Assembly (NCBI GenBank): GCA_017307375.1
Contig: JAFKFH010000012.1
Location: 124,001 to 188,000 of the forward strand
Direction of reading: 5' to 3'
Origin: Alphaproteobacteria bacterium
GTDB lineage: Bacteria; Pseudomonadota; Alphaproteobacteria; Ferrovibrionales; Ferrovibrionaceae
DNA length: 64,000 nucleotides
In this document: piece after piece, positions 1-46,073 of the stretch
How the letters are laid out: each line of letters opens with the position of its first letter
Numbering within the stretch: position 1 is the first letter of the stretch
Position numbers and translations under genes: made by a program
Notes under the pieces: generated by a model
The model's database searches: none
Told to the model about the DNA's origin: nothing
The model's input: the letters and a program-made list of their open reading frames with translations, nothing else

Positions 1-517
1 CCAGGCCGAAGACGTGAAAGCGCAGCAGCAGGTAGACGGCGGCGCAGATCGCCACGGCCACGACCAGCACGAAGATGCGGTTGCCGGTCAGCGCCACGTC
101 GCCGAAACGGTAGACCTGATCCATGAACTGGTAGCCGCGCGCCGAGGCGGTGAAGGCGAGCGAGGCGAGGTTCTGCAGGATCACCGAGATGCCGAAGAAC
201 AGGAGCAGCGAGTTGCCCTCCAGCCGCCGCATCAGCTGCGGCGAGGCGAGCAGGCGCCGGAACAGGCCGAGATAGGTCAGCCAGCCGAGCAAGGCGCCGG
301 CCGCGGCGGCCAGTACCAGCCCGACGACCGGGGACAGGCCGAACAGGGTCAGGCCCCAGAAGGCGACATAGGCGCCGATCATCACCAGGTCGCCATGCGC
401 CACGTTGAGCAGGCGCATGGTGCCATAGACCAGGTTCAGGCCGAGGGCGATGAGGGCGTAGAGCGCGCCGGTGATCAGGGCGGCAAACAGCAATTGTCCG
501 GACAACAGCACGTCCAC
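1..517 (-). CDS. livH: Branched-chain amino acid-type ABC transporter permease LivH (partial, 3' end outside window)
   Basis: Inner-membrane permease of a Liv/HAAT-type importer. About 172 N-terminal residues are visible. The sequence after the start runs GQLLFAALITGALYALIALG and then NLVYGTMRLLNVAHGDLVMIGAY, the usual LivH opening with its first two hydrophobic segments and the conserved N-x-AHGD motif. I chose the GTG at 517 because a GGGAGGG ribosome site sits about 8 bases before it; a second in-frame GTG lies at 511. It follows a Liv-type binding-protein gene by 37 bp at the end of the putative N-heterocycle operon, so the transporter probably imports the aromatic substrate or a product rather than leucine. 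LivM, LivG and LivF would be expected beyond position 1. Confidence 0.88.
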   Translation of the reverse strand, partial: MDVLLSGQLLFAALITGALYALIALGLNLVYGTMRLLNVAHGDLVMIGAYVAFWGLTLFGLSPVVGLVLAAAAGALLGWLTYLGLFRRLLASPQLMRRLEGNSLLLFFGISVILQNLASLAFTASARGYQFMDQVYRFGDVALTGNRIFVLVVAVAICAAVYLLLRFHVFGL

Positions 518-554
518 GTCCTATCCCTCCCCCTCGGCCCTGGAATCCTGCCGG

Positions 555-1739
555 TTACCAGCTCGTCTTCGGGCGGTAGGCCGCGGTGGCGATCGAGGCC
601 GGCCAGACCAGCTCGATCTTGTCGCCCTGGACCTGCAGGAAGGCGGTCGGGGTGGCGACGTTCTCGACGCCCTGGAACTTCACCGGCCCGTTGATCGTGT
701 CGAAGGTGGTGGTCGAGATGACCTCGCGCAGCTTTTCCTTGTCGAGGCCGGCCTTGGCCACCGCCTGCTGCAGGATCTCGCAGGAGATGTAGGCCAGCGC
801 GCTGTCGAGATGGTCGGGGATCTCGTTGAACTTCTTGACATAGGCGTCATAGAACGGCTTCGCCTTGGTCCAGTCGGCGCGATAGGGCGACCAGTGCCCG
901 ACCGTGACGATGTTGTTCGCCGAGGCCCCGACGACCTTCTGGTAGAAATCCATCGTCGGCCCGACCAGCACGAAGTCGAACTGGGATTCGATGCCGATCT
1001 CCTTGGCCTGCTTGGCGAACAGGACCGAGTCGGAGGGATAGGACAAGGCGATCGTCGCGTCGGGCTTCGCCTTCTTGACCGCGGTCAGCATCGCGGTCAT
1101 GTCCTTGGTGGTCGGCGGATACTCCTCGTTGACCTTGACCTCGATGCCTTCCTTCTTCAGGGCCGGCAGCAGGAACGTCTTGATCTCCTTGGAGAACGGC
1201 AGGACGCTCGAGAGGATCGCGACCGAGGTGACCTTGTTGGCCTTCATCATCGCGACCAGTTCGGGCGCGATCTTGTCCGGGATGGCCGAGGTCGGGAACC
1301 AGATATAGCCCGGCTTGATGTCGCGCAGCTGGGCCGAGGCGGCCGAGTTGCCGACCATCGGGAACTTGTACTTCTCCAGGACCGGCGCCAGCGCGAAATG
1401 ATGCGGCGTGCCCCAGGGGGCGAGGATCAGGTCGACCTTGTCGTCGGTGATCAGCTTTTCATAGATGCGAACGGCCTGGCCCGGGTTGGACTGGTCGTCG
1501 TACTGCACGAACTCGACCGGCCGCTTGGTGCCGGCGACGTCCAGGCCGCCGGCCGCGTTGACCTGCTCGCGCCACAGTTCGTAGGCGTTCAGCTGCGAAG
1601 GCGCCGCATCGGCGAACAGCCCGGTCTTGGCGATCGAGAAGCCGATCCTGACCGGATCGGCAGCCCAGGCGGCACCGCCGCCGAGGCCGAAGGACGCTGC
1701 TGCCAGCACCGCGCCGGCAATAAGGTGACGCCTGTTCAT
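555..1739 (-). CDS. Periplasmic substrate-binding protein, Liv/HAAT family
   Basis: A 394-residue Peripla_BP_6-type binding protein. Residues 1-26 form an export signal ending AAWA. The mature part begins DPVRIGFSIAKTG, the typical opening of Liv-type binding proteins, and contains the PVEFVQYDDQSNPGQA region of the first lobe. A GGGAGG ribosome site precedes the ATG. It lies 19 bp after the alpha/beta hydrolase gene and just before livH, in one transcription unit with the molybdenum hydroxylase and NicX-like genes. Members of this family bind many ligands, including aromatic acids and amides. From context I infer an aromatic or N-heterocyclic carboxylate, but nothing in the sequence fixes the ligand. 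Confidence 0.88.
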   Translation of the reverse strand: MNRRHLIAGAVLAAASFGLGGGAAWAADPVRIGFSIAKTGLFADAAPSQLNAYELWREQVNAAGGLDVAGTKRPVEFVQYDDQSNPGQAVRIYEKLITDDKVDLILAPWGTPHHFALAPVLEKYKFPMVGNSAASAQLRDIKPGYIWFPTSAIPDKIAPELVAMMKANKVTSVAILSSVLPFSKEIKTFLLPALKKEGIEVKVNEEYPPTTKDMTAMLTAVKKAKPDATIALSYPSDSVLFAKQAKEIGIESQFDFVLVGPTMDFYQKVVGASANNIVTVGHWSPYRADWTKAKPFYDAYVKKFNEIPDHLDSALAYISCEILQQAVAKAGLDKEKLREVISTTTFDTINGPVKFQGVENVATPTAFLQVQGDKIELVWPASIATAAYRPKTSW

Positions 1740-1758
1740 GCAAACCTCCCGTTATGGA

Positions 1759-2565
1759 TTACTGGCGATACTGGTCGACGAAAGCCTTGGCGGCGGGTAG
1801 CCATATGCCCGCGGGGTCGCCCGCGTGATAGCTGGCGCCGAAATGGTCGCAATCGGGCAGGACGAGGCGGTCCACCGCAATGCCGCGGGTGCGCAGCGCC
1901 CCCTCCATCTCGGCCGCCTGGGTCATCAGATGGGGAAAGTCGCGGTCGCCATGGGCGATCAGGAAGGGCGTGCGGTCGGTGATGGTCAGGACCGGGCTGG
2001 CCGCCGTCTCGGTGCCCGGCGCGCCGAGGAAACGCGGACGCATCGCCATGCCTGCCCCGTCGCCGAAGCGGTAGACGCCGGACACCGGCAGGCAACCCTC
2101 GAGCGGGTTGGCGGCAAGGCCGCGGGCGCGCCACCAGCCATCCTGCACCGCCAGCAGCGCGGCGTAGTGCCCCCCCGCCGAATGCCCGCCGGCAAAGAGC
2201 GGCGCCCCGCCGGTCTCGGCCTTAAGCCGCAACAGACCGTCGGCGCAGTCGTCGAAGCCGGCAGGAAAGACGTGCCCCGGTGCCAGGCGATAGCCGAGCG
2301 AGGCGAAGGTGATACCCGCCGCGGTGACGGCAGGCGCCATGAACGCCATCCATTCCTTGTAGCCGTTGGTCCAGCCGCCGCCATGGATGAAGGCCAGCAC
2401 CGGCGCGTCGGCCGCCACCGCCCGCCAGATCGACAGGCGCTGATAGCGATCGGGGCCGTAGGCGATTTCCTGCCCCGGCGGCACACCTGCACCCAGGGCC
2501 ATGACGCGGTCGTGATAGGCCTGCCCCACGGCCGAGAACGGTTCTTGCGGCGGATAGTCCATCAT
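1759..2565 (-). CDS. Alpha/beta hydrolase, arylformamidase/esterase-like
   Basis: A 268-residue soluble alpha/beta hydrolase. The oxyanion-hole motif HGGGW is at 61-65, the nucleophile elbow GHSAGG at 127-132 (Ser129), a candidate acid Asp207 in HGDRD, and His241 in DCDHFG. This HGGGW plus GHSAGG combination is typical of the hormone-sensitive-lipase/kynurenine-formamidase branch. The start ATG at 2565 overlaps the stop of the molybdenum hydroxylase gene (ATGA), so the two are translationally coupled. In nicotinate degradation the product of NicX, N-formylmaleamate, is deformylated by NicD, an alpha/beta hydrolase of a different branch (GHSMG). I infer this enzyme may play the deformylase role here. 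An ordinary ester hydrolase remains possible. Confidence 0.8.
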   Translation of the reverse strand: MMDYPPQEPFSAVGQAYHDRVMALGAGVPPGQEIAYGPDRYQRLSIWRAVAADAPVLAFIHGGGWTNGYKEWMAFMAPAVTAAGITFASLGYRLAPGHVFPAGFDDCADGLLRLKAETGGAPLFAGGHSAGGHYAALLAVQDGWWRARGLAANPLEGCLPVSGVYRFGDGAGMAMRPRFLGAPGTETAASPVLTITDRTPFLIAHGDRDFPHLMTQAAEMEGALRTRGIAVDRLVLPDCDHFGASYHAGDPAGIWLPAAKAFVDQYRQ

Positions 2566-4883
2566 GCCGCGGCCTCCGCCTCGATCAGCCCATCCAGCAC
2601 GCGTTCCGAGGTCAGCGGCAGGTGGTGGTGGCGATGGCCCGTGCCGGCCGCGACCGCGTTGGCGATGGCCGACGGGATGACGTTGATGCCGATTTCGCCA
2701 GCGCCCTTGGCGCCGAACGGCCCGTCCGGCTCCGGTGCCTCGACGATGATCGAGTGGATCGCATAGGGCGCGTCGCGGCTGGTCGGCACCTTGTAGTCCA
2801 TCAGCGACGGGTTGGCGAGCCGCGGGCCATCCCACACCATCTCCTCGAACAGGGCGAGGCCCATGCCCTGGACGAAGGCGCCTTCGAGCTGGACTTCGAC
2901 CAGCTGCGGATTGATCGCGCGCCCGACATCGGCGGCCGACCAGGCCTCGACCACCCGGGTCTTCCCGGTGACCTCGTCGATCTCGACCTCGACGACCACG
3001 GCGCCGAACGAGAACACGCCGATCCGCGCGAACGGCAGGCCGATGGCCACCGCCCGCTTCGGGTCGTGGGTCATCTGGTCGAAGACCAGCGTGTGCTCGC
3101 CAACAATCGGACCGCCGACAGCCCAATGGGCGCGCCCCGAAATCGCGGCGAACGAGACTTCCGCCCCCGGTACGCCGACGATGCCGACGCGGCCGCCCGC
3201 GCGCAGTTCCAGGTCGCCGACACCGCATTCCAGCATTTCCGAGGCATGCTGCTTCAGCTTGGCTTCGACCGCCCGGGCGGCACCGACGACGGCGCGCCCG
3301 GCGGTATAGGTGACGCGGCTGGCGGTGGTGCCCCAGTTATAGGGCGATCCGTCGGTATCCGGGCTTGCCACCGAGACCTTGTCGACCGGCAGTTGCAGCG
3401 CCTCGGCGCAGATCTGGGTCAGAACCGTGTCCGACCCCTGGCCGATGTCGGTGGCGCCGGTATTGAGCACCACGGTGCCATCCTCCAGCACGCGCACGAT
3501 CGCGCCGGTGCCGAGCAGGCCGGAGATATGCGCGGTAACCGACATGCCCAGCGCCCGGCGCTTGGTGCCATGCCTGGTCGCCTTGGGCCGGTCGCGCCAG
3601 CCGGACGCCTTCTCGACCGCGTCGATGCAGGCGGCAAGGCCGTTGGAGGCGACCTGCTGGCCGACGAACCAGGCGTCGCCTTCGCGCAGCATGTTGCGCC
3701 GGCGCATCTCGATCGGGTCGATCCCCAGCCGCCCGGCGATCTCGTCGATCTGCTGCTCGCCGGCGAACGAGACCTGCGGCTGGCCGAAGCCGCGGAAGGC
3801 ACCGAAGCGCAGCTTGTTCGTGTAGACCAGTTGGCCATGCGCCCGGCGATGCGGAATGCGATAGGGGCCAGGCGACATCAGCAGGCTGTAGCCGAGCACC
3901 CCGGGGCTGTCGTCGGCGAAGGCACCGCAGTCCAGCAGCACCTCGATCTCGCGCGCGACCAGCGTGCCGTCCTTCTTCGCCCCGGTCTTCATCCGGATCC
4001 TGAACGGATGGCGGGCGCGGACGATCTCGAAATCCTCCTCGCGCGTCAGGATCATCCGGACGTTGCGCCGGCATTTCAGCGCCAGCGCGACCACGATCGG
4101 CTGGATATGCGCTTCCATCTTGTTGCCGAACCCGCCGCCCACCCGCGGGGTCAGGCAGCGCAGTTTGGTCATCGGCAGGTTCAGCGATTCACAGACATTG
4201 GCCTGGACGCGGAACACCGACTGGTTGGCCGACCACAGCGTGATGCGGCCGCCCGCCTCGTACTCGGCCAGCGCCCCGCAAGGCTCGATCGCGACATGGG
4301 CCTGGGCCTGGGTGGTGTACTCGCCCTCGACGATCACGTCGCATTCGGTCCAGGCCCGGTCGACGTCGCCTTCCTCGAACCGGGTGCGCGAGGCAACGTT
4401 GCCGCCCGAGCCGGCATCGAACACCTTGACGTAGTCGGCCAGGTGCTCATGCAGGATCGGCGCGCCGGCGGCCAGGCCGTCTTCAGGCGACAGCACGGCC
4501 GGCAATTCGTCGTAATCGACCTCGATCAGCCGGCAGGCGGCGCGCGCCTGCGCCTCGGTCTCGGCCGCCACGGCCGCGACCGGCTCGCCGACATAGAGCA
4601 CCTTGCCCTTGGCCAGCGCATGTTCGTCCTTGATGAAGGCGCCCATCCGGCCGTCGGGCACGTCGTCGCCGGTCAGCACCGCGACGACGCCCGGCGCCGC
4701 CAGCGCCTTGGACACATCGTAACCGCGGATCCGCGCATGCGGCACCGGGCTGCCCAGGATCGCGGCATGCAGCACGTTGGCGCGCTGCAGGTCGGCGATG
4801 TAGCGGGCCTCGCCCAGCACCTTTTCCTGGTTCTCGAACTTCGGGATCGACAGCCCGACCGCGATACCCTTGGGATCGGTCAT
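2562..4883 (-). CDS. Molybdenum hydroxylase large subunit (xanthine dehydrogenase-type)
   Basis: A 773-residue molybdopterin-binding catalytic subunit of the xanthine oxidase family. Visible motifs are AHVAIEPCG (about 195-203), VGGGFGNK (248-255), the substrate-channel loop GAFRGFGQPQ (361-370) and the catalytic Glu730 in GAKGAGE. The GAFRGFG loop is the xanthine dehydrogenase/N-heterocycle type; the AYxCSFR loop of true CO dehydrogenases is absent. The start MTDPKG at 4883 overlaps the stop of the iron-sulfur gene (ATGA); the frame stays open upstream but without family similarity. It acts with the 2Fe-2S and FAD subunits encoded just upstream. In this operon it probably hydroxylates an N-heteroaromatic ring ahead of NicX-type cleavage. 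The substrate is unknown. Confidence 0.92.
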   Translation of the reverse strand: MTDPKGIAVGLSIPKFENQEKVLGEARYIADLQRANVLHAAILGSPVPHARIRGYDVSKALAAPGVVAVLTGDDVPDGRMGAFIKDEHALAKGKVLYVGEPVAAVAAETEAQARAACRLIEVDYDELPAVLSPEDGLAAGAPILHEHLADYVKVFDAGSGGNVASRTRFEEGDVDRAWTECDVIVEGEYTTQAQAHVAIEPCGALAEYEAGGRITLWSANQSVFRVQANVCESLNLPMTKLRCLTPRVGGGFGNKMEAHIQPIVVALALKCRRNVRMILTREEDFEIVRARHPFRIRMKTGAKKDGTLVAREIEVLLDCGAFADDSPGVLGYSLLMSPGPYRIPHRRAHGQLVYTNKLRFGAFRGFGQPQVSFAGEQQIDEIAGRLGIDPIEMRRRNMLREGDAWFVGQQVASNGLAACIDAVEKASGWRDRPKATRHGTKRRALGMSVTAHISGLLGTGAIVRVLEDGTVVLNTGATDIGQGSDTVLTQICAEALQLPVDKVSVASPDTDGSPYNWGTTASRVTYTAGRAVVGAARAVEAKLKQHASEMLECGVGDLELRAGGRVGIVGVPGAEVSFAAISGRAHWAVGGPIVGEHTLVFDQMTHDPKRAVAIGLPFARIGVFSFGAVVVEVEIDEVTGKTRVVEAWSAADVGRAINPQLVEVQLEGAFVQGMGLALFEEMVWDGPRLANPSLMDYKVPTSRDAPYAIHSIIVEAPEPDGPFGAKGAGEIGINVIPSAIANAVAAGTGHRHHHLPLTSERVLDGLIEAEAAA

Positions 4884-5359
4884 TGCGCCAACTCCTCGGC
4901 GGCGGCGAGCACCGCGTCGATGATCTTGCGATAGCCGGTGCAGCGGCAGATGTTGCCGGACAGGGCGGCCTGCACCGCCTCGGCATCGGGGCGTGGCTGA
5001 TCCTGCAGCAGGCGGCGCGCCGAAATCAGCATGCCCGGGGTGCAGAAGCCGCATTGCACCGCGCCACGCACGACGAACTGCCGCTGCAGCACCGCCATCA
5101 CCGGATCGCGGCCTGTGCCTTCGATGGTCACGATCTCGTGGCCTTCGCAGGCGGCGGCGAGCGACAGGCAGCCGCGCACCGGCCAGCCATCGACCTCGAC
5201 CGTGCAGGAACCGCAGACCCCCTGGTTGCAGCCGCGCTTGGCCCCGGTCAGGCCGAGCTGGTCGCGCAGGACGGTCAGCAGCGTGTCGGAGCCTTCGGCC
5301 GAGACGCGGCGGCGCGCACCATTGACCTGGAGCAGAAGATCCTGGCGATCGTCGATCAT
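4880..5359 (-). CDS. Molybdenum hydroxylase [2Fe-2S] subunit
   Basis: A 159-residue electron-transfer subunit with two iron-sulfur clusters. The plant-ferredoxin-type cluster is held by Cys44, Cys49, Cys52 and Cys64 (GCNQGVCGSC motif). The second, alpha-helical cluster is held by Cys103, Cys106, Cys138 and Cys140 (QCGFCTPG and NICRCTGY). All eight ligands are intact and the length is normal for the family. It shuttles electrons from the molybdenum centre to the FAD subunit. Both ends overlap neighbouring genes by ATGA, which implies strict co-translation of the three subunits. Confidence 0.95.
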   Translation of the reverse strand: MIDDRQDLLLQVNGARRRVSAEGSDTLLTVLRDQLGLTGAKRGCNQGVCGSCTVEVDGWPVRGCLSLAAACEGHEIVTIEGTGRDPVMAVLQRQFVVRGAVQCGFCTPGMLISARRLLQDQPRPDAEAVQAALSGNICRCTGYRKIIDAVLAAAEELAQ

Positions 5360-6201
5360 GCCGCCTCCCGCGTGTCGAGCAGTTCGGAAATGGCGGCCTG
5401 CAGCAGCCGCGGAATCAGGCGACGACGATAGTCGGCGCTGCCGCGCACGTCGTCGACCGGATCGGCCGCGGCCGCGAGCAGCGCGGCAGCCTCGGCAACC
5501 GCGTCATGATCGGCCAGCCGCCCGGCCAGTACCGCCTCGGCCGCATCCGAGCGCAGCGGCACCGGGCCGCAGGCGCCGACCGCGACGCGCGCCCCGGCCC
5601 CGTCCAGCACCAGGGCCAGCGAGGCGATCGCGTAATCCCCGGACGTGCGGGCATGCTTGCGATAGATCGACGGCTGCGTGCCGGCCGGGGGCAGATGGAT
5701 CGCGGTGACCATCTCGCCCGGCTCGATCGCGGTCGTGTACCAGTCGACGAAGAATTCGCGCGCGGCCAGGCGACGGGTCGCTGCGGCCGAAGCCAGCTCG
5801 ATCTCGGCATCGGCCGCGACCAGCGCCGGCGGATAGTCGGCGGCCGGATCGAAAAAGGCGATCGACCCGCCCATCGTGCCCATGTTGCGCACCACCGCAT
5901 TGGCGATGACCGAGGCTGCCTGCCGGACCACTGCATGGCCTCCGGCCAGGCGCATGTCGGCGGCGGTTTCGCGATGTCTGGTCATGGCGCCGATCCGCAC
6001 CCGGCCATCGTCGGCAACGGTGATGCCGCGCAGTTCGGCGATACCGTCGAGCGCCACCAGCACGCCGGGCTCGGCAAGGCCGGCATTCATCATCGCCACC
6101 AGCGTCGCGCCACCGGCAAGGCAGCGCGCGTCGGGTTCCTCGGCCAGCACGGCCAGGGCCGCGTCGAGCGTTGCCGGGCGGACCAGCCGCGGGCCGGTCA
6201 C
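5356..6201 (-). CDS. Molybdenum hydroxylase FAD-binding subunit
   Basis: A 281-residue subunit of the CoxM/XdhB type. The FAD-binding motifs are AGGATLVAMM near residue 30 and NMGTMGGS near residue 110, followed by the C-terminal CO-dehydrogenase flavoprotein domain. It takes electrons from the 2Fe-2S subunit and passes them to an acceptor. It overlaps the CoxG-like gene upstream and the iron-sulfur gene downstream by 4 bp each. The presence of an FAD subunit separates this enzyme from two-component nicotinate hydroxylases such as NicAB, which use cytochromes instead. Confidence 0.93.
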   Translation of the reverse strand: MTGPRLVRPATLDAALAVLAEEPDARCLAGGATLVAMMNAGLAEPGVLVALDGIAELRGITVADDGRVRIGAMTRHRETAADMRLAGGHAVVRQAASVIANAVVRNMGTMGGSIAFFDPAADYPPALVAADAEIELASAAATRRLAAREFFVDWYTTAIEPGEMVTAIHLPPAGTQPSIYRKHARTSGDYAIASLALVLDGAGARVAVGACGPVPLRSDAAEAVLAGRLADHDAVAEAAALLAAAADPVDDVRGSADYRRRLIPRLLQAAISELLDTREAA

Positions 6202-6656
6202 GACGCCGTCTCCATCTCGACCTTGGCGCGGAAGTTGCGCACGAATTCTTCCGACAGGCTCTGCGCCTTCTTCTTCATCACACCGAGGCCGAACTTGCCG
6301 AGACGCCCGGTGACCGAAACCTCCGAGGCGTAGACGACTTCGGTCGCGCCGTCCTCCGTCGCCTTCAGCTCCAGGCGGTTTTCGGCCGAGACGACGCTCG
6401 CCCGTGTCCCCTCGTCACCCCGGGTCACCGAGACGACACGCTCCGGCGGCACCTCCTCGGTCACCTCGACGACCAGGTCGAAGCGCGCCGAGATCGGGCC
6501 GACCGCGACCTTGACGCGGGCCTTGTAGGTCTTCGGGTCGACGACCTCGATGGCTTCGCAGCCGGGAATGCAGCCGGCCATCAGCCCGGCATCGGTAATC
6601 TTTTCCCAGACGCGCGCCTGCGGGGCGGCGATGGTGAAACTGCCTTCGATCAGCAT
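6198..6656 (-). CDS. CoxG-like SRPBCC protein (carbon monoxide dehydrogenase subunit G family)
   Basis: A 152-residue protein of the SRPBCC/START-like fold. It opens MLIEGSFTIAAPQARVWEKI and contains the CIPGCEAIE segment typical of CoxG. CoxG proteins occur with molybdenum hydroxylases and help to anchor or mature them; they are not catalytic subunits. The C-terminal hydrophobic anchor seen in long CoxG proteins is absent, so this is the short soluble form. It sits between the nicX-like gene (30 bp gap) and the FAD subunit gene (4 bp overlap). Because the large subunit is not a CO dehydrogenase, I infer an accessory role for an N-heterocycle hydroxylase. Confidence 0.88.
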   Translation of the reverse strand: MLIEGSFTIAAPQARVWEKITDAGLMAGCIPGCEAIEVVDPKTYKARVKVAVGPISARFDLVVEVTEEVPPERVVSVTRGDEGTRASVVSAENRLELKATEDGATEVVYASEVSVTGRLGKFGLGVMKKKAQSLSEEFVRNFRAKVEMETAS

Positions 6657-6686
6657 GGCCTGGCTCCTCCGGCTGGGCCCCGCCGC

Positions 6687-7766
6687 TCAGCGCGGCACGC
6701 GCTTGACGATCATCTTGGGGTCGACGATCCGGCCGGCCTCGACCACGACATTGCCATCGAGGGCGATGGTGCAGTCGCGCATCGGCACGTCATAGTGGCC
6801 GCGCGTCTTGCGCGTGCCGCCGCCTTGCGTGTTCGGACCGGTCGAGAACAGGAAGTTGCCGGGGAACGAACGGGACGCGGCCCGGCTGCGTTCGGGCGCG
6901 TCGCCGTAGAGGGCGAGCGAGTCCCAGCGGCATTGCGGGTTCAGCCCCCAGCCGGCATGCGACACGGCATAGGGATCGCGATCGCCTTCGAATTCCTCAC
7001 CCTCGCGCAGCCACTCGCGCATCAGCGTGGCATCGAGGCCGCCTTCGATCCGGGTGATATGCCCGCCTTCGATCTCCAGCCGGACCTCGTCCTGCACATA
7101 GCGGCAGTAAGGCAGGATGATGATGTCGCCGGGCTGGAAGACGACGCGGCCGCGGGCCGAGCCTTCGTTCGGGAAGGTGTGCAGAAGGCCGACGCCCCAA
7201 TGGTCGAACCGGCCGGGCTCGTCGGCCATGCCGTACTGGCTCATCACCGGGTATTCGCCGCATTCATAGGTCAGGTCGGTACCGGCCTTCGAGGTGACGC
7301 GGACCGACTTGGTCTTTTCGTAAAGGGCATGGGCGTGCAGCACCGCTTCCTTCAGGCCGGGGGGCGACTGCAACTGCTCCAGATCGTCAGGCGCGTCGAT
7401 GATCATCTGCACCCGCACCTTGTTGTTCATCACCTGCTTGAGCCAGGCGGAGAACAGCGGCACGTGGAAGATCAGGACCATGTCGCAGGCCATCAGTGCG
7501 TCGAGCGTGCCCTTGCACTTGCCGATCGTCGGCACGCCGACCTTGGTCCAGCCGGGAATGGCGTTGACGCACATCTCGTAGATGTCGGCGCCGAGTTCGT
7601 CGGCGGCGGCGAAGGCCGACTGGATGTAGTCGCGGCGGGTGCCGAGGTCGGAGACGATGGCGATGGTCTCGCCCGGCTTGATCTTGCAGAGCTGGAATTG
7701 CTGGCGGAACAGCTGGGTCAGCTTGCCCGGATTCACTTCCTGACTGCGAACGGCGGCGTGCAGCAT
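6687..7766 (-). CDS. NicX-like 2,5-dihydroxypyridine 5,6-dioxygenase
   Basis: A 359-residue non-haem iron ring-cleaving enzyme of the NicX (M29 aminopeptidase-like fold) family. The C-terminal half matches NicX closely: ADEPGRFDHW, SHAGWGLNP, GNFLFSTGPNT and the HYDVPMRDC segment. By comparison with Pseudomonas NicX as I recall it, the iron ligands would be His270, Ser308 and Asp326, with Glu183 and His189 at the substrate pocket; all five are present. NicX opens 2,5-dihydroxypyridine to N-formylmaleamate. This is the first gene of a seven-gene or longer operon, behind an operator-bearing promoter, with AGGGAGAAGG upstream of the ATG. The N-terminal half is more divergent than the C-terminal half, so a related dihydroxylated N-heterocycle could be the real substrate. 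Confidence 0.85.
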   Translation of the reverse strand: MLHAAVRSQEVNPGKLTQLFRQQFQLCKIKPGETIAIVSDLGTRRDYIQSAFAAADELGADIYEMCVNAIPGWTKVGVPTIGKCKGTLDALMACDMVLIFHVPLFSAWLKQVMNNKVRVQMIIDAPDDLEQLQSPPGLKEAVLHAHALYEKTKSVRVTSKAGTDLTYECGEYPVMSQYGMADEPGRFDHWGVGLLHTFPNEGSARGRVVFQPGDIIILPYCRYVQDEVRLEIEGGHITRIEGGLDATLMREWLREGEEFEGDRDPYAVSHAGWGLNPQCRWDSLALYGDAPERSRAASRSFPGNFLFSTGPNTQGGGTRKTRGHYDVPMRDCTIALDGNVVVEAGRIVDPKMIVKRVPR

Positions 7767-7810: not shown

Positions 7811-7839
7811 ATTAAAACCGAACGATCTTCGTTTTTCAA
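7811..7839 (-). promoter_or_regulatory. Sigma70-like promoter of the nicX-like operon
   Basis: On the minus strand TTGAAA (7839-7834) is followed by a 17-bp spacer and TTTAAT (7816-7811), close to the housekeeping consensus and about 45 bp before the nicX-like ATG. The 17-bp spacer (7833-7817) is exactly one copy of the ACCGAA-N5-TTCGTT repeat described in the next entry, so a bound repressor would block RNA polymerase directly. The call rests on sequence alone. Confidence 0.6.
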
Positions 7840-7871: not shown

Positions 7872-8453
7872 ATGGCGCAGGTCAAGAAGACCGAGGTTCG
7901 CGACCGGATACTGGCCGCGGCCGCTACGCTGTTCGCGGAACTGGGGTATGCGCGGGCGACGGTCAGCCAGATCGCCAAGGCCGCCGGTACGGCCCCGTCG
8001 AACGTCTACGTCTATTTCAAATCGAAGCTCGAGATCGTGTTCGCGATCTACGACCCCTGGCTGAAGGAGCATCTCGACTTGCTGGACGCCGAGATCGCGG
8101 GCCTGGACACGCCCGAGGCGCGCGTCTTCCGCATCGTCGAGAAACTGTGGCGCGATATCCCGGCGGACCGCAACGGCTTCGCCAACAACCTGATCCAGGC
8201 GATCTCGCAGGCGACACCGGAAGATTGCTACGATCCGGCGCTGCTGCGCTGGACCGAGCAGAAGATCGCCGGGCTGCTGACCGCCTCGCTGCCGCCACGG
8301 CGCGCCGCCGAGATCGACGCGCTACGCTTCGCCCATATCCTGATGATGGCCTTCGACGGCTTCGCGGTAAACTACGCGATCAACCGCGCCATCCACTGCG
8401 ACGACGCGATGATCGAGCAGATGTGCGCATCGATTCTGGGGCGCGCGGGTTGA
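7872..8453 (+). CDS. TetR-family transcriptional regulator of the N-heterocycle operon
   Basis: A 193-residue TetR/AcrR-type regulator. The N-terminal helix-turn-helix covers about residues 9-55 and includes FAELGYARATVSQIAKAAG and the NVYVYFKSK recognition region. The rest is a helical ligand-binding domain ending FDGFAVNYAINRAIH. The frame is open far upstream, but the ATG at 7872 begins the conserved part (MAQVKKTEVRDRILAAA) and fits the divergent promoter. It faces away from the nicX-like gene with 105 bp between them, where two operator-like repeats lie. I infer that it represses the catabolic operon until a pathway metabolite binds. Confidence 0.9.
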   Translation: MAQVKKTEVRDRILAAAATLFAELGYARATVSQIAKAAGTAPSNVYVYFKSKLEIVFAIYDPWLKEHLDLLDAEIAGLDTPEARVFRIVEKLWRDIPADRNGFANNLIQAISQATPEDCYDPALLRWTEQKIAGLLTASLPPRRAAEIDALRFAHILMMAFDGFAVNYAINRAIHCDDAMIEQMCASILGRAG

Positions 8454-16088: not shown

Positions 16089-16176
16089 TTTGTCTGATGA
16101 CTATCCCTATCAAACGTCGCAGCGCACCGTCAAGCGAGCGTCATTTCGCATGCGCGGGAGAAAAAGATCAGACAAA
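16089..16176. promoter_or_regulatory. Inverted repeat TTTGTCTGAT ... ATCAGACAAA upstream of gntR
   Basis: A perfect 10-bp inverted repeat occurs at 16089-16098 and 16167-16176, flanking the gntR promoter region. The gntR-proximal copy is 25 bp before the start codon. The distal copy overlaps the stop codon of the preceding racemase-like gene. The GTCTGA half-site resembles the GTmTA core of HutC-type operators only loosely. Two separated sites could allow looping by the GntR dimer. Confidence 0.5.
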
Positions 16177-16812
16177 CCGGTGTGAAATGCGCCGCCAGGC
16201 GAGGTCGACCGCCGCCGGCACCGGCTCGATCATCGGAACCGGCACCCGGTGCCGCAGGACCCTGGCCGCCTCGGCCAGCGGGCCGCCGCCGATGATCAGT
16301 GCCTCCGCGCGATACCGGTCCACCGCCTGATGGCAGGCATCGAGCAGCGCAGCCAGCAGCGCCGCGGGGTCGGCCATCAGGCGGCCTGGATCACCCGGCG
16401 TCAGAACCACGGGCAGGTCGTCGTGGCCGTGGCGACGCGCCATCTCCCGGATCGCCGGGGCCAGATCGGGCGTCGTGGTCACCACGGCGGCGCGGCGGCC
16501 CGCAGCCGCCAGGAATGCCGCCTCGCCGATGCCGGTCACCGGTATGGCGAGCCTTGCGCGCAATTCGTCGAGCCCGGGATCGCCGAAGGCAGCCACGATG
16601 ACGCCGTCGGCGGCGATGTCGGGCGCCAGGCTTGCCACCGCACGGCTCGCCTCGGCCAGGCCAGACACGGTCGTGATCAGGTGGCTGCCGAACGGCGCGG
16701 TCAAGCCGACGATCTCGACCCCGCCGGGGGCTGCCCGGCGGGCGATGGCCAGCATCGCCTCGGTCGTGGCAAGCGACGTGTTCGGATTGACCAGCGCGAT
16801 CCGCGCCGTCAT
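16168..16812 (-). CDS. Asp/Glu/hydantoin racemase-family protein lacking both catalytic cysteines
   Basis: A 214-residue protein of the Asp/Glu racemase superfamily, closest in layout to hydantoin/allantoin racemases (IALVNPNTS at 5-13, AAFGDPGL at 74-81, IIGGGPLA at 173-180). Family racemases use two cysteines, one in ACFDDPG and one in LGCAGM. Here these positions are Ala75 and Gly176, and the only cysteine (Cys160) is elsewhere. Racemisation by the usual two-thiol mechanism therefore looks impossible. It overlaps the last ATPase gene of the Dpp-type importer by 4 bp (16809-16812), so it probably processes or senses the imported compound. Confidence 0.8.
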   Translation of the reverse strand: MTARIALVNPNTSLATTEAMLAIARRAAPGGVEIVGLTAPFGSHLITTVSGLAEASRAVASLAPDIAADGVIVAAFGDPGLDELRARLAIPVTGIGEAAFLAAAGRRAAVVTTTPDLAPAIREMARRHGHDDLPVVLTPGDPGRLMADPAALLAALLDACHQAVDRYRAEALIIGGGPLAEAARVLRHRVPVPMIEPVPAAVDLAWRRISHRFV

Positions 16813-35293: not shown

Positions 35294-36547
35294 ATGCAGC
35301 GGTTTTCCGGCTTAGACCTGTTCCTGCGCGCCCTGGGTCGGCACCAGACCTGGAAGCCGCAATGGCGCGAACCCGAGCCGAAGGCCGCCTACGACGCGGT
35401 CATCGTCGGCGGCGGCGGGCACGGCCTGGGCGCTGCCTACTACCTCGCCAAGGAATTCGGCCTGCGCAATATCGCGGTCCTGGAAAAGGGCTGGATCGGC
35501 GGCGGCAACACCGGCCGCAACACCACGATCATCCGCTCGAACTACCTGTTCGACGAAAGCGCCGCGCTCTACGACCACGCCGTCAAGCTGTGGGAGGGGC
35601 TGTCGCAGGAACTGAACTACAACGTGATGTTCTCGCAGCGCGGCGTGCTGATGCTGGCGCACAACATCCACGACATCCAGTCGTTCAAGCGCCATGTCCA
35701 TGCCAACCGGGTCAACGGCGTCGACAACGAGTGGCTGACGCCCGAACAGGTCAAGGAATTCTGCCCGGCGCTGAACGTCGGCCCCAACATGCGCTATCCG
35801 ATCCTGGGCGGCGCGCTGCAGCGGCGCGGCGGCACCGCGCGGCATGACGCGGTGGCCTGGGGCTATGCCCGGGCGGCCGACGCGCTCGGCGTCGACATCA
35901 TCCAGAATTGCGAGGTCACCGCGATCAATCGCGACGCCCAGGGCCGCGTCTCGGGGGTCGAGACCACGCGCGGCCCGATCCGCACGACCAAGGTCGGTGT
36001 CTCGGCGGCCGGCCATACCAGCGTGCTGATGCAGATGGCCGGGCTGCGCATGCCGCTGGAAAGCTATCCGCTGCAGGCGCTGGTGTCGGAACCGGTCAAG
36101 CCGGCCTTCAACTGCGTCGTCATGTCGAATACCATCCATGCCTATATCAGCCAGTCCGACAAGGGCGAGATGGTGATCGGCGCCGGCACCGACGCCTACA
36201 CCTCCTACAGCCAGCGCGGCGCCCTGCACATCGCCACCCATACGCTGGATGCCATCTGCGAACTGGTGCCGATGTTCCGCCGGCTGCGCATGCTGCGCAA
36301 ATGGGGCGGCATCGTCGACGTCACCCCGGACCGGTCGCCGATCCTGGCCAAGCTGCCGGTGCCGGGCCTCTACGTGAACTGCGGCTGGGGCACCGGCGGG
36401 TTCAAGGCGACGCCGGGCGCCGGCCACCTGCTGGCCTGGACCATGGCCAAGGACGAACCGCACCCGATCAACGCGCCCTTCACCCTCGAACGCTTCCGCG
36501 ACGGCCGGCTGATCGACGAAGCCGCCGCCGCCGCCGTCGCCCATTGA
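35294..36547 (+). CDS. soxB: Sarcosine oxidase beta subunit
   Basis: A 417-residue FAD-dependent subunit of heterotetrameric sarcosine oxidase. It begins [14 protein letters not shown] and has the dinucleotide-binding motif [21 protein letters not shown] (cited [14 protein letters not shown]) near residue 37, and the C-terminal [16 protein letters not shown] that closes the flavin site. It oxidises sarcosine to glycine, passing the methyl group to tetrahydrofolate with the alpha subunit. It is first of four tightly spaced sox genes. Confidence 0.96.
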
Positions 36548-36557
36548 GGTCGCCCCG

Positions 36558-36854
36558 ATGCTTCTGATCCCCTGCCCCCATTGCGGCGAACGGCCCGAGA
36601 TCGAATTCCGCTACGGCGGCGAGGCCCATGTCGCCCGGCCCGCCGATCCCTCGGCGCTCGATGACGAGGCCTGGGCCGCCTATCTCTACCTGCGCAACAA
36701 CCCCAAGGGCCTGCACGCCGAGCGCTGGCGCCACATCCACGGCTGCGGCCGCTATTTCAACGTCCTGCGCGACACGGTTTCGGACAAGATCACCGCCACC
36801 TACAAGGCCGGCGAACCGCGACCCGACCTGCCCGCCACGGAGGCTGCGGAATGA
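36558..36854 (+). CDS. soxD: Sarcosine oxidase delta subunit
   Basis: A 98-residue zinc-binding subunit. The ligands are visible as CPHC (6-9) and, later, HIHGCGRYFNVLRDT, which is characteristic of SoxD. It stabilises the sarcosine oxidase heterotetramer. It starts 10 bp after soxB and overlaps soxA by 4 bp. Confidence 0.96.
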   Translation: MLLIPCPHCGERPEIEFRYGGEAHVARPADPSALDDEAWAAYLYLRNNPKGLHAERWRHIHGCGRYFNVLRDTVSDKITATYKAGEPRPDLPATEAAE

Positions 36855-39800
36855 GCGCGCCGTTCCGCCTCGCCCAGGGTGGCCGCATCGATCGCGCCCG
36901 CCCGCTCGGCTTCACCTTCGACGGCAAGTCCTATTCCGGCTTTGCCGGCGACACGCTCGCCTCGGCGCTGCTGTCCCATGGCGTGCATCTGACGGGCCGG
37001 TCGTTCAAGTACCATCGCCCGCGCGGCATCCTGTCGGCCGGTGCCGACGAGCCGAACGCACTGGTCGGCGTCGGCCGCGACCAGACGCGCTATACCCCGA
37101 ACCTGCGCGCGCCCCAGGTCGAGCTTTACGACGGGCTGGTGGCCGAAAGCCAGAACCGCTGGCCGTCGCTGTCCTTCGACATCGGCGCAGTCAACGACCT
37201 GTTCGGCCGCTTCCTGCCGGCCGGGTTCTACTACAAGACCTTCATGTGGCCGCGGAAGGCGTGGGACCACGTCTACGAACCGAAGATCCGCGCCATGGCG
37301 GGGCTGGGCCGCGCCCCGACGGCGGCCGATGCCGACCGCTACACCCAGCGCTATGCCCATTGCGACGTGCTGGTGGTCGGCGCCGGGCCGGCGGGCCTTG
37401 CCGCGGCGCTGGCGGCATCGGCCGGCGGGGCCAGCGTCATGCTGTGCGACGACCAGGCCGAGTTCGGCGGCTCGCTGCTGTCGGAGACGACCGCGACGAT
37501 CGACGGCAAGCCGGCCGCCCAGTGGATCGCCGACACCGTCGCGACGTTGCGTGGCCGGGCGAACGTCATGCTGCTCGGCCGCACCCAGGCCTTCGGCTAT
37601 TACCCGCACAACTCGATCGGCCTGGTCGAGCGCCTGACCGACCACCTGGCGACCCCGCATCCGGACATGCCGCGCGAGCGGCTGTGGACCCTGCGTGCCC
37701 GCGAGGTCGTCATCTGCGCCGGCGCGCTGGAACGCCCGATGGTGTTTCCGGAAAACGACCGCCCCGGCATCATGCTGGCCGGCGCCGCCCGTACCTACGC
37801 CAATCGCTACGGCGTCAAGGCCGGCAGCCGCGCCGTGCTGTTCACCGCCCAGGACGAAGGCTATCGCGCGGCGCTCGACCTGGCCCGGGCCGGTGTCCAT
37901 GTCGCGGCCATCGCCGACCTGCGCCCGAATCCCGACGGCGAGTTGCCCGCGGCGGCGCGCGCCGCCGGCCTCAACATCATGGCGGGCACGACCGTCACCG
38001 GCACGCGCGGCCGCCTGCGCGTCAGCGGGGCGACGCTCGGCCGCCTCGGCCTCGACGGCCAGGTCGGGCAAAGCCAGACGATCGCCTGCGACCTGTTGCT
38101 GATGTCGGGCGGCATGACGCCGTCGGTGCATCTGTTCTCGCAATCGAAGGGCAAGCTGCGCTTCGACGAGACGATCAAGGCCTATGTGCCCGGGCAATCG
38201 GCCGAGCGCGAGCGGTCGGCCGGCGCCTGCCGTGGCATCTTCGGGCTGGCGGCGGCGATCGAGGACGGCTTCGCCCGCGGCGAGGAAGTCGCCCAGGCCG
38301 TCGGCCGCGCCGGCGGGGCCGTCACCCGCGTGGCGGTGACCACGCTTGCCGCGGCACCAGGTGTCCATCTCGGGGCCGCGCCGCATGACCGCGACGCGGC
38401 AACCGTGAAGGCGTTCGTCGATTACCAGAACGACGTCACCGCCAAGGACCTGGCGCTGGCAACCCGCGAGGGTTTCCGCTCGATCGAGCATATCAAGCGC
38501 TACACCACGACCGGCATGGCGACCGACCAGGGCAAGATGTCGAACATGAACGCGCTGGGCATCGTCGCCGATGCGTTGCGCCGCGACATTCCCGAAATCG
38601 GCCTGACCACCTTCCGCCCGCCCTACACCCCCGTGACCTTCGGCGCCTTCGCCGGCACCTCGCGCGGCCAGCTGTTCGATCCGGTCCGCCAGACCGCGAT
38701 CCATGGCTGGGCCGCCGATCACGGTGCCGCGTTCGAGGATGTCGGGCTGTGGAAACGCGCCCACTACTTCCCGCAGGGCGGCGAGGACATGCATGCGGCG
38801 GTGGCCCGCGAATGCAAGGCCGTGCGCGCCGCGGTCGGCATCTTCGACGCCTCGACGCTCGGCAAGATCGAGATCGTCGGGCCGGACGCGGCCGAGTTCA
38901 TGAACCGCATGTACACCAACGCCTGGACCAAGCTGGAATCCGGGCGCTGCCGCTATGGCGTCATGCTGCGCGAAGACGGCTTCGTGATGGACGACGGCGT
39001 CGTCGGCCGCATGGCCCACGACCGCTTCCACGTCACCACCACAACCGGCGGGGCGCCGCGGGTGCTGGCCCATATGGAAGACTACCTGCAGACCGAGTGG
39101 CCCGACCTCGACGTCTGGCTGACCTCGACGACCGAGCAGTGGGCGGTCATCGCGGTGCAGGGCCCGAACGCGCGCAAGGTGCTGGAGCCGCTGGTCGAGG
39201 ACATCGACATCTCGGCGGCGGCGATGCCGCATATGAGCGTCAGGCAGGGCCGCATCTGCGGCGTGCCGACCCGGCTGTTCCGCGTCTCCTTCACCGGCGA
39301 GCTCGGCTTCGAGGTCAACGTGCCGGCCGATTACGGCCGCGCGGTGTGGGAAGCGATCTACCAGGCCGGCCTGGCCCACGGCATCACCCCCTACGGCACC
39401 GAGACGATGCACGTGCTGCGCGCCGAGAAGGGCTACATCATCGTCGGCCAGGAAACCGACGGCACCGCGGTGCCCGACGATGTCGGGCTCGGCTGGGCGG
39501 TCGGCAAGGCGAAGAAGGATTTTGTCGGCAAGCGCTCGCTGGCCCGCGCGGAATTCTCGAAGCCTGACCGCAAGCAGATGGTCGGCCTGCGCACCCGCGA
39601 CCCGCATGACGTGCTGGAGGAAGGCGCCCAGATCGTCGCCAATCCCAACCAGCCGGTGCCGATGACGGTGCTGGGCCAGGTCACCTCGTCCTATTTCAGC
39701 GCGGTGCTCGACCATTCGATCGCCATCGCCATGGTGCGCGGCGGCCGCGCGCGCATCGGCGAGACGCTCTATGTGCCGATGCCCGACCGCGTCATCGCCG

Positions 39801-39856
39801 TCACCGTCGTCGATCCCGTCTTCTTCGACCGCGAGGGGGTTCGCCTCGATGCCTGA
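36851..39856 (+). CDS. soxA: Sarcosine oxidase alpha subunit
   Basis: A 1001-residue subunit. The N-terminal 2Fe-2S-like/ferredoxin-type region carries TFDGKSYSGFAGDTLASAL. It is followed by an NAD-binding domain (VLVVGAGPAGLAAALAASAGG, cited GAGPAGLAAALAA, near 175) and a C-terminal aminomethyltransferase/GcvT-like folate domain from about residue 610 (RRGQLFDP-like GQLFDPVRQTAIHGWAADHGA in part, then FDASTLGKIEIVGPDA). It channels the formaldehyde-level carbon to tetrahydrofolate, yielding 5,10-methylene-THF. The length is normal for the family. Confidence 0.96.
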   Translation: MSAPFRLAQGGRIDRARPLGFTFDGKSYSGFAGDTLASALLSHGVHLTGRSFKYHRPRGILSAGADEPNALVGVGRDQTRYTPNLRAPQVELYDGLVAESQNRWPSLSFDIGAVNDLFGRFLPAGFYYKTFMWPRKAWDHVYEPKIRAMAGLGRAPTAADADRYTQRYAHCDVLVVGAGPAGLAAALAASAGGASVMLCDDQAEFGGSLLSETTATIDGKPAAQWIADTVATLRGRANVMLLGRTQAFGYYPHNSIGLVERLTDHLATPHPDMPRERLWTLRAREVVICAGALERPMVFPENDRPGIMLAGAARTYANRYGVKAGSRAVLFTAQDEGYRAALDLARAGVHVAAIADLRPNPDGELPAAARAAGLNIMAGTTVTGTRGRLRVSGATLGRLGLDGQVGQSQTIACDLLLMSGGMTPSVHLFSQSKGKLRFDETIKAYVPGQSAERERSAGACRGIFGLAAAIEDGFARGEEVAQAVGRAGGAVTRVAVTTLAAAPGVHLGAAPHDRDAATVKAFVDYQNDVTAKDLALATREGFRSIEHIKRYTTTGMATDQGKMSNMNALGIVADALRRDIPEIGLTTFRPPYTPVTFGAFAGTSRGQLFDPVRQTAIHGWAADHGAAFEDVGLWKRAHYFPQGGEDMHAAVARECKAVRAAVGIFDASTLGKIEIVGPDAAEFMNRMYTNAWTKLESGRCRYGVMLREDGFVMDDGVVGRMAHDRFHVTTTTGGAPRVLAHMEDYLQTEWPDLDVWLTSTTEQWAVIAVQGPNARKVLEPLVEDIDISAAAMPHMSVRQGRICGVPTRLFRVSFTGELGFEVNVPADYGRAVWEAIYQAGLAHGITPYGTETMHVLRAEKGYIIVGQETDGTAVPDDVGLGWAVGKAKKDFVGKRSLARAEFSKPDRKQMVGLRTRDPHDVLEEGAQIVANPNQPVPMTVLGQVTSSYFSAVLDHSIAIAMVRGGRARIGETLYVPMPDRVIAVTVVDPVFFDREGVRLDA

Positions 39857-40412
39857 GACCGCCGCCATCCGCCAGGGCGCCTTCGACCAGCTGGCCGCCC
39901 GTGCCGCCGCCGTCACCTTCACCCCCTGCCCGCCCGCCGCGCGCTTCGTGTTCCGCGGCCGGCCGGCCGGGTTCGCGGCCGCCGGCGATGCCTTCGGCGT
40001 CGCCCTGCCCCAGACCGCCTGCCGTGCGGCCACGACCGGCAGCCGCAGCGCCCTGTGGCTCGGCCCCGACGAATGGCTGCTGCTGGCCGAGGACGGCGCG
40101 GTCGCGGCGATCGAGGCGGCCTTTGCCGACAGGCTCGGCCAGCAGCCGCATTCGCTGGTCGATGTCAGCCATCGCAACACCGCCGTCGAGATCGCCGGGC
40201 CGGCAGCGGCCGACGTGCTCAATGCCGGCTGCCCGCTGGACCTGCGGCTCGAGGCGTTCCCGGTCGGCATGTGCACGCGCACCCTGTTCGCCAAGGCCGA
40301 GATCGTGCTGTGGCGGACCGACGCCCAGCGTTTCCGCGTCGAGGTCTGGCGCTCGTTCGCCGGCTATCTCTGGGGTCTCCTCGACGAGATCCGCCGCGAA
40401 CACGCGGCCTGA
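39849..40412 (+). CDS. soxG: Sarcosine oxidase gamma subunit
   Basis: A 187-residue subunit. The SoxG-type core includes LWLGPDEWLLLAEDG, SLVDVSHRNTAVEIAGPAA and the C-terminal VEVWRSFAGYLWGLL. The ATG at 39849 overlaps the last codons of soxA by 8 bp; the open frame upstream is a shadow of soxA. It completes the heterotetramer. Confidence 0.94.
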   Translation: MPETAAIRQGAFDQLAARAAAVTFTPCPPAARFVFRGRPAGFAAAGDAFGVALPQTACRAATTGSRSALWLGPDEWLLLAEDGAVAAIEAAFADRLGQQPHSLVDVSHRNTAVEIAGPAAADVLNAGCPLDLRLEAFPVGMCTRTLFAKAEIVLWRTDAQRFRVEVWRSFAGYLWGLLDEIRREHAA

Positions 40413-40427
40413 CGGGCGGCGGGCGCG

Positions 40428-41786
40428 ATGATCAGCATCTTCGAACTGTTCAAGATCGGCATCGGCCCGTCCTCCTCCCACACCGTCGGGCCGATGAAGG
40501 CCGCCGGCGCGTTCGTCGCGGGCCTGGGCGACGGCATCGCCGACGTGGCGCGGCTGCGCGTCACCCTCTACGGCTCGCTCGCCTGGACCGGCAAGGGCCA
40601 CGGCACCGACAAGGCGGTGCTGCTGGGCCTGGCCGGCGAACGGCCCGACACCGTCGATCCCGACCAGGCCGAGGCGCTGGTCGCCGCGGCCGGCCGGCAC
40701 CTGCTGCTCGGCGGCCGGCATCCCATCGCCTTCGACCAGGCAGCCGACATCGTCTTCGACGGCACCGGCGAGACGCCGGCGCACCCGAACACCCTGGCCT
40801 TCGCGGCCTTCGCCGCCGACGGCCGGGTCATCGCCGAGGAACGCTGGTGTTCGGTCGGCGGCGGCTTCGTCGTGCCCGAAGCCGAGGTCGATGCCCCGAC
40901 CGCGGCGGCCCCCGCCGTGCCCCATCCCTATCGCACCGCCGCGGGCCTGCTGGCGCTGTGCCGCGCCCACGGCCTGCCGATCGCCGAGATCGTCCGCCGC
41001 AACGAACTGTCGCTACGCACGGCCGACGAGGTCGACGGCCATATCGCGGCGGTCGCCGACGCGATGATGCGCTGCATCGATCGCGGCATGGCGCGCGACG
41101 GCGTGCTGCCCGGCGGGCTGAAGGTCAAGCGCCGCGCCAAGTCGATCCACGACCGGCTGCAGGCCGACCGGCTGAACAACAGCCATGCCCAGCACGAGGT
41201 GATGGACTGGGTGAGCCTCTATGCCATCGCCGTCAACGAGGAGAACGCGGCCGGTGGCCGCGTCGTCACCGCGCCGACCAACGGCGCCGCGGGGGTCGTG
41301 CCGGCGGTGCTGCGCTATTACCGCGACCACTGCCACGGCGCCTCCGCCGCCGGCATCGCCGACTTTCTGCTGACCGCGACCGCGATCGGCGGGCTGTGCA
41401 AGATGAACGCCTCGATCTCGGGGGCGGAGGTCGGCTGCCAGGGCGAGGTCGGCTCGGCCTGTTCGATGGCCGCCGCCGGCCTGGCCGCCGCCTTGGGCGG
41501 CAGCCCCGCCCAGGTCGAGAATGCCGCCGAGATCGGCATGGAACATCATCTCGGCCTGACCTGCGATCCGATCGGCGGGCTGGTGCAGGTGCCCTGCATC
41601 GAGCGCAACGCCTTCGGCGCGGTCAAGGCGATCACCGCCGCCTCGCTGGCGCTGCGCGGCGACGGCACGCATCTCGTAACCCTCGACCAGGTGATAGCCA
41701 CGATGCGCGAAACCGGTGCCGACATGCAGTCGAAATACCGCGAGACGTCGCTGGGCGGCCTCGCCGTGAATTTTGTCGAATGCTGA
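40428..41786 (+). CDS. sdaA: L-serine ammonia-lyase, iron-sulfur type, single chain
   Basis: A 452-residue serine dehydratase converting L-serine to pyruvate and ammonia. The N-terminal domain has [19 protein letters not shown]. The C-terminal domain has [19 protein letters not shown] and the cysteines expected to bind the 4Fe-4S cluster in [20 protein letters not shown] and [18 protein letters not shown]. It starts 15 bp after soxG. In this locus it takes the serine made from glycine and methylene-THF by GlyA to central metabolism, completing sarcosine use as a carbon source. Confidence 0.95.
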
Positions 41787-41830
41787 AGAGCGTTTCCTGG
41801 CAATATGGCGGCGGCAGCGAGGTGCCGCCG

Positions 41831-42892: not shown

Positions 42893-42895
42893 AGC

Positions 42896-42920
42896 GGGCG
42901 CGGCGACGCGGTTCGCGCCC
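42896..42920 (+). terminator. Stem-loop after the gbdR-like gene
   Basis: Perfect 7-bp arms GGGCGCG (42896-42902) and CGCGCCC (42914-42920) begin 4 bases after the regulator stop. No T-run follows; a weak call. Confidence 0.35.
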
Positions 42921-42962
42921 CCGCCTTCCGTATCATCGATGTGTCGCAAATCGCCGGGTCGT

Positions 42963-46052: not shown

Positions 46053-46073
46053 CAGGCATTTAGTCTTATCATC

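Follow-up and report, generated by a model that had tools for sequence, protein, structure and literature searches.

The 64,000-nucleotide window analyzed here (positions 124,001 to 188,000 of contig JAFKFH010000012.1, GCA_017307375.1) comes from the 7.5 Mb genome of an alphaproteobacterium of the Ferrovibrionaceae and begins within a gene cluster that we propose to be a catabolic operon for an N-heteroaromatic compound. The genes for a NicX-like dioxygenase, CoxG, CoxM, CoxS, CoxL, an HGGGW-type hydrolase, a Liv-type binding protein and LivH form a tight row on the minus strand (1-7766), with a regulator gene diverging from it:

6687..7766, minus strand: NicX-like non-heme Fe(II) ring-cleavage dioxygenase of the Q177 clade, 359 aa, predicted from the match to 7cn3, the modelled fold and the Fe ligands
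6198..6656, minus strand: CoxG-like SRPBCC protein, 152 aa (PF06240, E = 9e-21)
5356..6201, minus strand: FAD subunit, CoxM-type, 281 aa (PF00941, E = 7.5e-45; PF03450)
4880..5359, minus strand: 2x[2Fe-2S] subunit, CoxS-type, 159 aa (PF01799, E = 9e-28; PF00111)
2562..4883, minus strand: molybdopterin-binding catalytic subunit (CoxL) of the xanthine dehydrogenase family, 773 aa (PF02738, PF20256, PF01315)
1759..2565, minus strand: HGGGW alpha/beta hydrolase, 268 aa (PF20434/PF07859)
555..1739, minus strand: Liv/HAAT-type periplasmic substrate-binding protein, 394 aa (PF13458, E = 7e-58)
1..517, minus strand: LivH permease, truncated at the edge of the window; an Abhydrolase_1 protein, here called hydrolase 2, lies further past position 1
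7872..8453, plus strand: divergent TetR-family regulator, 193 aa (PF00440, E = 3e-14)

All the genes named in the original prediction lie on the minus strand, at the positions and in the families given there. The intergenic gaps in the row range from -4 to +37 bp, so that a single transcript is likely; this agrees with the co-transcription that had been claimed, and the gene order is kept in 24 loci of other genomes. Past position 1 of the window the operon goes on with the genes for LivM, LivG and LivF and for another alpha/beta hydrolase. These overlap their neighbors or lie within ~12 bp of them, and bring the operon to 12 genes in all (nicX-like, coxG, coxM, coxS, coxL, HGGGW hydrolase, binding protein, livH, livM, livG, livF and hydrolase 2). 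Just beyond the operon end, on the same strand and after a gap of ~130 bp, is a pair of genes for an IorAB-type two-subunit molybdoenzyme (L003:11714-14346), which consists of a small FeS subunit and a large Mo subunit without an FAD partner. Between the TetR and NicX genes, AACGATCTTCGTT at 7821-7833 is a short inverted repeat with 5-bp arms, recognized by eye, that may serve as an operator; a promoter consensus scan of this intergenic region gave no match.

A Pfam scan assigned no family to the NicX-like protein. By phmmer it matched NicX of Pseudomonas putida KT2440 (7cn3) with E = 2e-67 and ~36% identity. Its AF2 model, with a predicted local distance difference test (pLDDT) score of 85, superimposed on chain C of 7cn3 with template-modelling (TM) scores of 0.89/0.92 and a root-mean-square deviation of 2.1, and the folds ranked next were those of the bacterial aminopeptidases PepS and AmpT. 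The iron of NicX is bound by His265, Ser302, His318 and Asp320, and its substrate is contacted by Glu177, His189, Leu104 and His105, with Glu308 close to His105 (PMC7910607). In the window protein the predicted iron ligands are H270, S308, H324 and D326, and alignment showed that the four ligands and Arg293 were invariant in 84 of 84 sequences. Both Leu104 and His189 are also present; across the clade position 104 is always Leu and position 189 mostly His. The position of His105 is occupied by Phe, as it is in many NicE-linked NicX proteins. The two acidic residues of the pocket are, however, replaced by amides, Glu177 by Gln177 and Glu308 by Gln314. Gln is found at the Glu177 position in 81 of 81 clade members and at the Glu308 position in 77 of 81, whereas all 15 NicE-linked NicX proteins sampled have Glu at both positions. 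Glu177 of NicX contacts N1 and O1 of 2,5-dihydroxypyridine (2,5-DHP), the E177A variant had 2.7% activity, and NicX has been described as selective for 2,5-DHP with no other substrate reported (PMC7910607). The ring presented to the window protein is likely to be different, because Gln177 offers no carboxylate to the N1-H of the ring.

The maximum-likelihood tree resolved three groups, each on one branch: the Q177 sequences (support 100/99), the E177 sequences (99/95) and the remaining sequences (100/100). The Q177 set was gathered by similarity search with the window protein, and sampling bias is possible. Judged by sequence, the window protein is a dioxygenase of the NicX superfamily that lies outside the NicE-linked clade. 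A phylogeny placing it outside NicX had been named as grounds for abandoning the original prediction; by that measure the protein falls within the superfamily, yet not among the NicE-linked enzymes, and it has Gln in place of Glu177. Members of the Q177 clade occur in Variovorax, Ruegeria, Pusillimonas, Bradyrhizobium and many metagenome-assembled genomes (MAGs). None was found on plasmids, where NicX matches had at most 38% identity among the matches listed, and searches of viral contigs returned 0 matches. The source genome also encodes, on another contig (~194-204 kb; L004:10489-19999), a second NicX paralogue that is 40% identical to the first and has Gly at the Glu177 position. It heads an operon of its own, with genes for an alpha/beta hydrolase, an acyl-CoA dehydrogenase and an AMP-binding ligase and, after these, a Liv transporter, and in L051, L060 and L072 this operon adjoins the Q177 NicX gene.

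Conservation of the gene order was assessed in 80 loci whose NicX proteins were 64-84% identical to that of the window. In 24 loci from other genomes, including Variovorax strains, one MAG each of Rubrivivax and Aestuariivita, and MAGs placed in other groups by binning, nicX-(coxG)-coxM-coxS-coxL-hydrolase is contiguous on one strand. Eighteen of them run on through the binding protein gene and livHMGF, hydrolase 2 closes the operon in nine, as it does here, and in most loci CoxG lies between NicX and CoxM. This arrangement is not due to chance, and the operon is conserved across proteobacteria. A TetR relative is near NicX in 42 of the 80 loci and an HGGGW hydrolase gene in 44, many of the latter without the Mo hydroxylase, as in Pusillimonas, Neopusillimonas and Bradyrhizobium. 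Importers differ among the loci: most have Liv, and others have double-cassette ATP-binding cassette (ABC), DctM, TctC or NMT1-type systems, as would suit a single class of substrate whose uptake systems can be exchanged. The amidohydrolase and arginine-deiminase-family genes inside the operon of L067 and the amidase gene of L022 fit release of nitrogen and favor nitrogenous substrates. Divergence of NicX and its partner genes was only moderately correlated (rho 0.31-0.63) and is not used as strong evidence. As side observations, fused FAD monooxygenase/old-yellow-enzyme proteins are encoded near NicX in L051 (12115-14385) and L060 (12157-14427), with the domains shown for L051, and are a possible clue to the pathway; this domain pairing resembles that of 2-aminobenzoyl-CoA monooxygenase. 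On a plasmid of Rhodococcus pyridinivorans YF3 (L126), from a quinoline-degrading bioreactor, a single cluster holds the genes for a NicX homologue, a Mo enzyme of three subunits, a Rieske oxygenase and molybdopterin synthesis.

The operon encodes the Mo, FAD and 2x[2Fe-2S] subunits expected of a Mo hydroxylase of the xanthine dehydrogenase family, and the Mo subunit sequence contains the family motifs GAFRGFG and GAKGAGE, the latter with its glutamate. The solved structure nearest to the Mo subunit is 4-hydroxybenzoyl-CoA reductase (1rm6), followed by xanthine oxidase and quinoline 2-oxidoreductase. The Mo subunit scored below every NCBIfam equivalog cut-off. The enzyme was rejected as a 4-hydroxybenzoyl-CoA reductase, its three subunits scoring 562, 101 and 154 bits against cut-offs of 995, 405 and 258, and as a CO dehydrogenase, for which it also fell below the equivalog cut-offs. 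The CoxG-like SRPBCC protein is probably an accessory or anchoring part of the Mo hydroxylase. The closest paralogue of the Mo subunit in the same genome, 55% identical, is encoded with coxM, coxS, isochorismatase-family and hydantoinase/oxoprolinase genes. On another contig of this genome (L133:3132-12845), genes for hydantoinase A and B and for a hydrolase of the isochorismatase family lie together with a second CoxMSL set, whose Mo subunit shows this 55% identity; the cluster resembles a further pathway for a lactam or an N-heterocycle.

In the HGGGW hydrolase, H61-GGGW, GHSAG, D209 and H241 are invariant. A formamidase role for this protein is chemically attractive, because NicX chemistry yields an N-formyl amide. 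Foldseek matched its AF2 model (pLDDT 91) to Drosophila kynurenine formamidase 4e15 with a TM score of 0.79, tied with 9n8r. By VIA-align several esterases scored slightly above the formamidase (Z of 26.6, for 2pbl, to 24.1). Kynurenine formamidase and esterases of the HSL type are among the nearest folds and share the fold and catalytic motifs of the HGGGW hydrolase, but at only 16-26% identity, and the fold comparison does not separate the two groups.

The known nic route needs NicD, NicF and NicE. In the source genome no orthologue of any of them was found: the only NicE match was partial (28% over 121 aa), the best-scoring NicF match was 34% identical, and the best-scoring NicD match had 37% identity over 106 aa. 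Thirteen weak isochorismatase-type matches were also found in this genome. Hydrolase 2 was considered as a NicD orthologue and rejected, with only 33% identity over 105 aa. NicE- and NicF-type functions are missing from the window, as originally described, and the search of the whole genome brought up no orthologues of them; the region past position 1, where maleamate amidase and maleate isomerase genes were to be sought, holds the genes for LivM, LivG, LivF and hydrolase 2. A racemase gene of the Asp/Glu/hydantoin family that closes a peptide-type ABC operon (16168-16812 of the window) belongs to the same superfamily as NicE, yet was missed by the NicE search. Among 398 genomes of the phylum, 34 had a NicX homologue, and 15 of these 34 had NicE nearby on the same contig. 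In five of 18 other genomes with the Q177 operon, a second NicX, 36-38% identical, lies beside a 77-83% identical NicE at another locus, and in nine of the 18 no NicE exceeded 32% identity. It follows that the Q177 enzyme is not just a redundant copy of NicX and that its function is not bound to maleate isomerisation.

Taken together, the balance of probability tips slightly towards a widespread N-heteroaromatic catabolic operon, in which Mo-dependent hydroxylation would be followed by ring opening by the Q177 dioxygenase and hydrolysis of the product by the HGGGW hydrolase. In this scheme, derived from gene families and gene order, of which we infer the order of reactions, the N-heterocyclic ring and every substrate and product, a small N-heteroaromatic compound would induce the 12-gene operon, presumably through the divergent TetR-family protein, and would be imported by the Liv-type ABC transporter. 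CoxMSL, aided by CoxG or anchored by it to the membrane, would hydroxylate a ring carbon next to the nitrogen with oxygen from water. The NicX-like Fe(II) dioxygenase would then open the hydroxylated ring by a NicX-type mechanism, with a His2-Asp-Ser iron site and insertion of O2, and would cleave the bond between the hydroxylated carbon and the neighboring ring carbon. The ring-opened product, most simply an N-formyl amide, would be hydrolyzed by the HGGGW hydrolase. Both acidic pocket residues of NicX are amides clade-wide, and the route makes no use of NicD, NicE and NicF; for these reasons the substrate is probably an aza-ring of another kind or a ring with other substituents, and not plain 2,5-DHP. 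We see an even chance that the Q177 clade is a distinct and widespread ring-cleavage dioxygenase acting on a substrate other than 2,5-DHP, and that the operon is a complete, undescribed route, from import through Mo hydroxylation and ring opening to hydrolysis, that ends without the NicDFE steps. The earlier interpretation, an N-heterocycle-type operon that encodes a three-subunit Mo hydroxylase and a dioxygenase of the NicX fold, is supported, and of the two options that it had offered, a different substrate has become more likely and a convergent route to plain 2,5-DHP less likely, given the clade and the replacement of Glu177 by Gln.

Several observations weigh against this interpretation. 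The fold of the HGGGW hydrolase model does not single out a formamidase. The replacement of Glu by Gln might be tolerated with 2,5-DHP, given the residual activity of E177A and the retention of about half of the activity by E308A (PMC7910607). Some clade loci have NicX and the hydrolase without a Mo hydroxylase or with a different Mo enzyme; NicX and the Mo hydroxylase may serve separate steps, the Mo enzyme not being universal in the clade. Genes for a gentisate-dioxygenase-like cupin and FAD monooxygenases lie close to NicX in L024, L026, L040 and L051, followed in L026 by FAA-hydrolase and glutathione S-transferase (GST) genes as in a gentisate pathway, which could mean a carbocyclic substrate. 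We know of no enzyme of the Q177 clade that has been assayed.

There are three other explanations. The operon might be of the 3-hydroxypyridine type, with CoxG and CoxMSL forming an HpdA-like enzyme that makes 2,5-DHP, the NicX-like enzyme making N-formylmaleamate, the HGGGW hydrolase acting as a non-orthologous NicD, and maleamate and maleate handled elsewhere by unrelated enzymes. The operon has the same four components as HpdA, including the separate CoxG homologue, as HpdA is cited in PMC11962113; a route from 3-hydroxypyridine through 2,5-DHP to N-formylmaleamate has been documented in Agrobacterium DW-1 (PMC6525221); NicX H105F remains active (PMC7910607); and the source genome has the weak isochorismatase-type matches noted above. 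We nevertheless regard this explanation as unlikely, in view of the two Glu-to-Gln replacements throughout the clade, the lack of NicE and NicF orthologues in the source genome, the lack of NicE above 32% identity in half of the 18 sampled operon-bearing genomes and the normal NicX that five genomes have in addition beside NicE.

A doubtful alternative, less probable than a 3-hydroxypyridine route, is that the NicX-like clade cleaves a gentisate- or hydroquinone-like 2,5-diol, or works beside a gentisate-type pathway, with Gln177 replacing the Glu that reads the pyridine N-H. The contacts of Glu177 with N1 and O1 of 2,5-DHP (PMC7910607) and the cupin, FAD-monooxygenase, FAA-hydrolase and GST genes described above are consistent with it, but one of two enzymes cleaving the same ring would be superfluous, the gentisate-type loci are a minority, the common partner is a xanthine dehydrogenase-type Mo hydroxylase typical for N-heterocycles, and other members have amidase, amidohydrolase and deiminase-family genes. 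Least probable of all, in our judgment, is a mere bundle of functions, in which the Mo enzyme, as an oxidoreductase of the aldehyde or acyl type, would catalyze a separate or earlier step, and the functional pair would be limited to the NicX-like protein and the HGGGW hydrolase. The hydrolase does follow NicX without Mo genes in L024, L028, L030, L031, L034 and L082-L084, and 4-hydroxybenzoyl-CoA reductase is the structure nearest to the Mo subunit; the identical tight order in 24 loci and a Mo-subunit score far under the cut-off for that reductase (562 vs. 995 bits) argue against it.

A clade beside NicX with the same iron site and an altered substrate pocket allows direct tests of which substrates this dioxygenase family accepts. 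It could also set right the labels "2,5-dihydroxypyridine 5,6-dioxygenase" or "leucyl aminopeptidase" that NicX-family genes are given automatically, and may show how an N-heterocycle not recognized until now is removed by common bacteria of soil and sea. Elsewhere in the window, positions 35294-50852 contain sarcosine oxidase-type genes and genes for a formyl transferase with an ACT domain, a Rieske oxygenase, a serine hydroxymethyltransferase-like protein and glycine-betaine-type ABC proteins, and look like a catabolic island leading from betaine through glycine to serine. At 54962-57043 a single open frame of 693 aa encodes a TetR/BetI-type regulator fused to a full aldehyde dehydrogenase.

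The pairing of a Mo hydroxylase with a NicX-type dioxygenase, which the original prediction had put forward as new, has precedents in SpmABC with Hpo, in picA1A2A3 with picD and in the four-component HpdA, where a multi-subunit Mo-type enzyme precedes a route of the 2,5-DHP type or clusters with it. In nicotine degradation by P. putida S16, SpmABC, a molybdopterin enzyme of three subunits, supplies a route via the NicX-type dioxygenase Hpo (PMC5500553; PMC6122326), and the pic cluster for picolinate combines picA1A2A3 with the 2,5-DHP dioxygenase gene picD (PMC10142695). Both systems resemble the window operon in that a three-gene dehydrogenase feeds a NicX-type dioxygenase route, but in addition they rely on a decarboxylase or flavin monooxygenase and on a deformylase, an amidase and an isomerase, a conserved set that the window operon lacks. 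HpdA of Ensifer adhaerens HP1 is a four-component 3-hydroxypyridine dehydrogenase that includes a separate CoxG homologue, according to the citation of it in PMC11962113; the window operon likewise has Mo-hydroxylase genes and a separate CoxG/SRPBCC gene, a likeness of composition. Membership in the Mo-hydroxylase clusters of Ensifer plasmids was rejected, given only 38% identity, UbiD and amidohydrolase neighbors and no NicX annotation. Compared with NicX and Hpo of P. putida KT2440 and S16, the window protein shares the fold, ~36% identity, the four iron ligands, Arg293, Leu104 and His189, but differs in the clade-wide Gln at the positions of Glu177 and Glu308, in having no NicD, NicE or NicF alongside and in belonging to a separate, fully supported clade. 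As far as we found, this clade and its operon have no description in the literature searched. What is new in comparison with these systems is thus the Q177 clade, which stands apart and has a conserved operon, and not the concept of a Mo hydroxylase joined to NicX.

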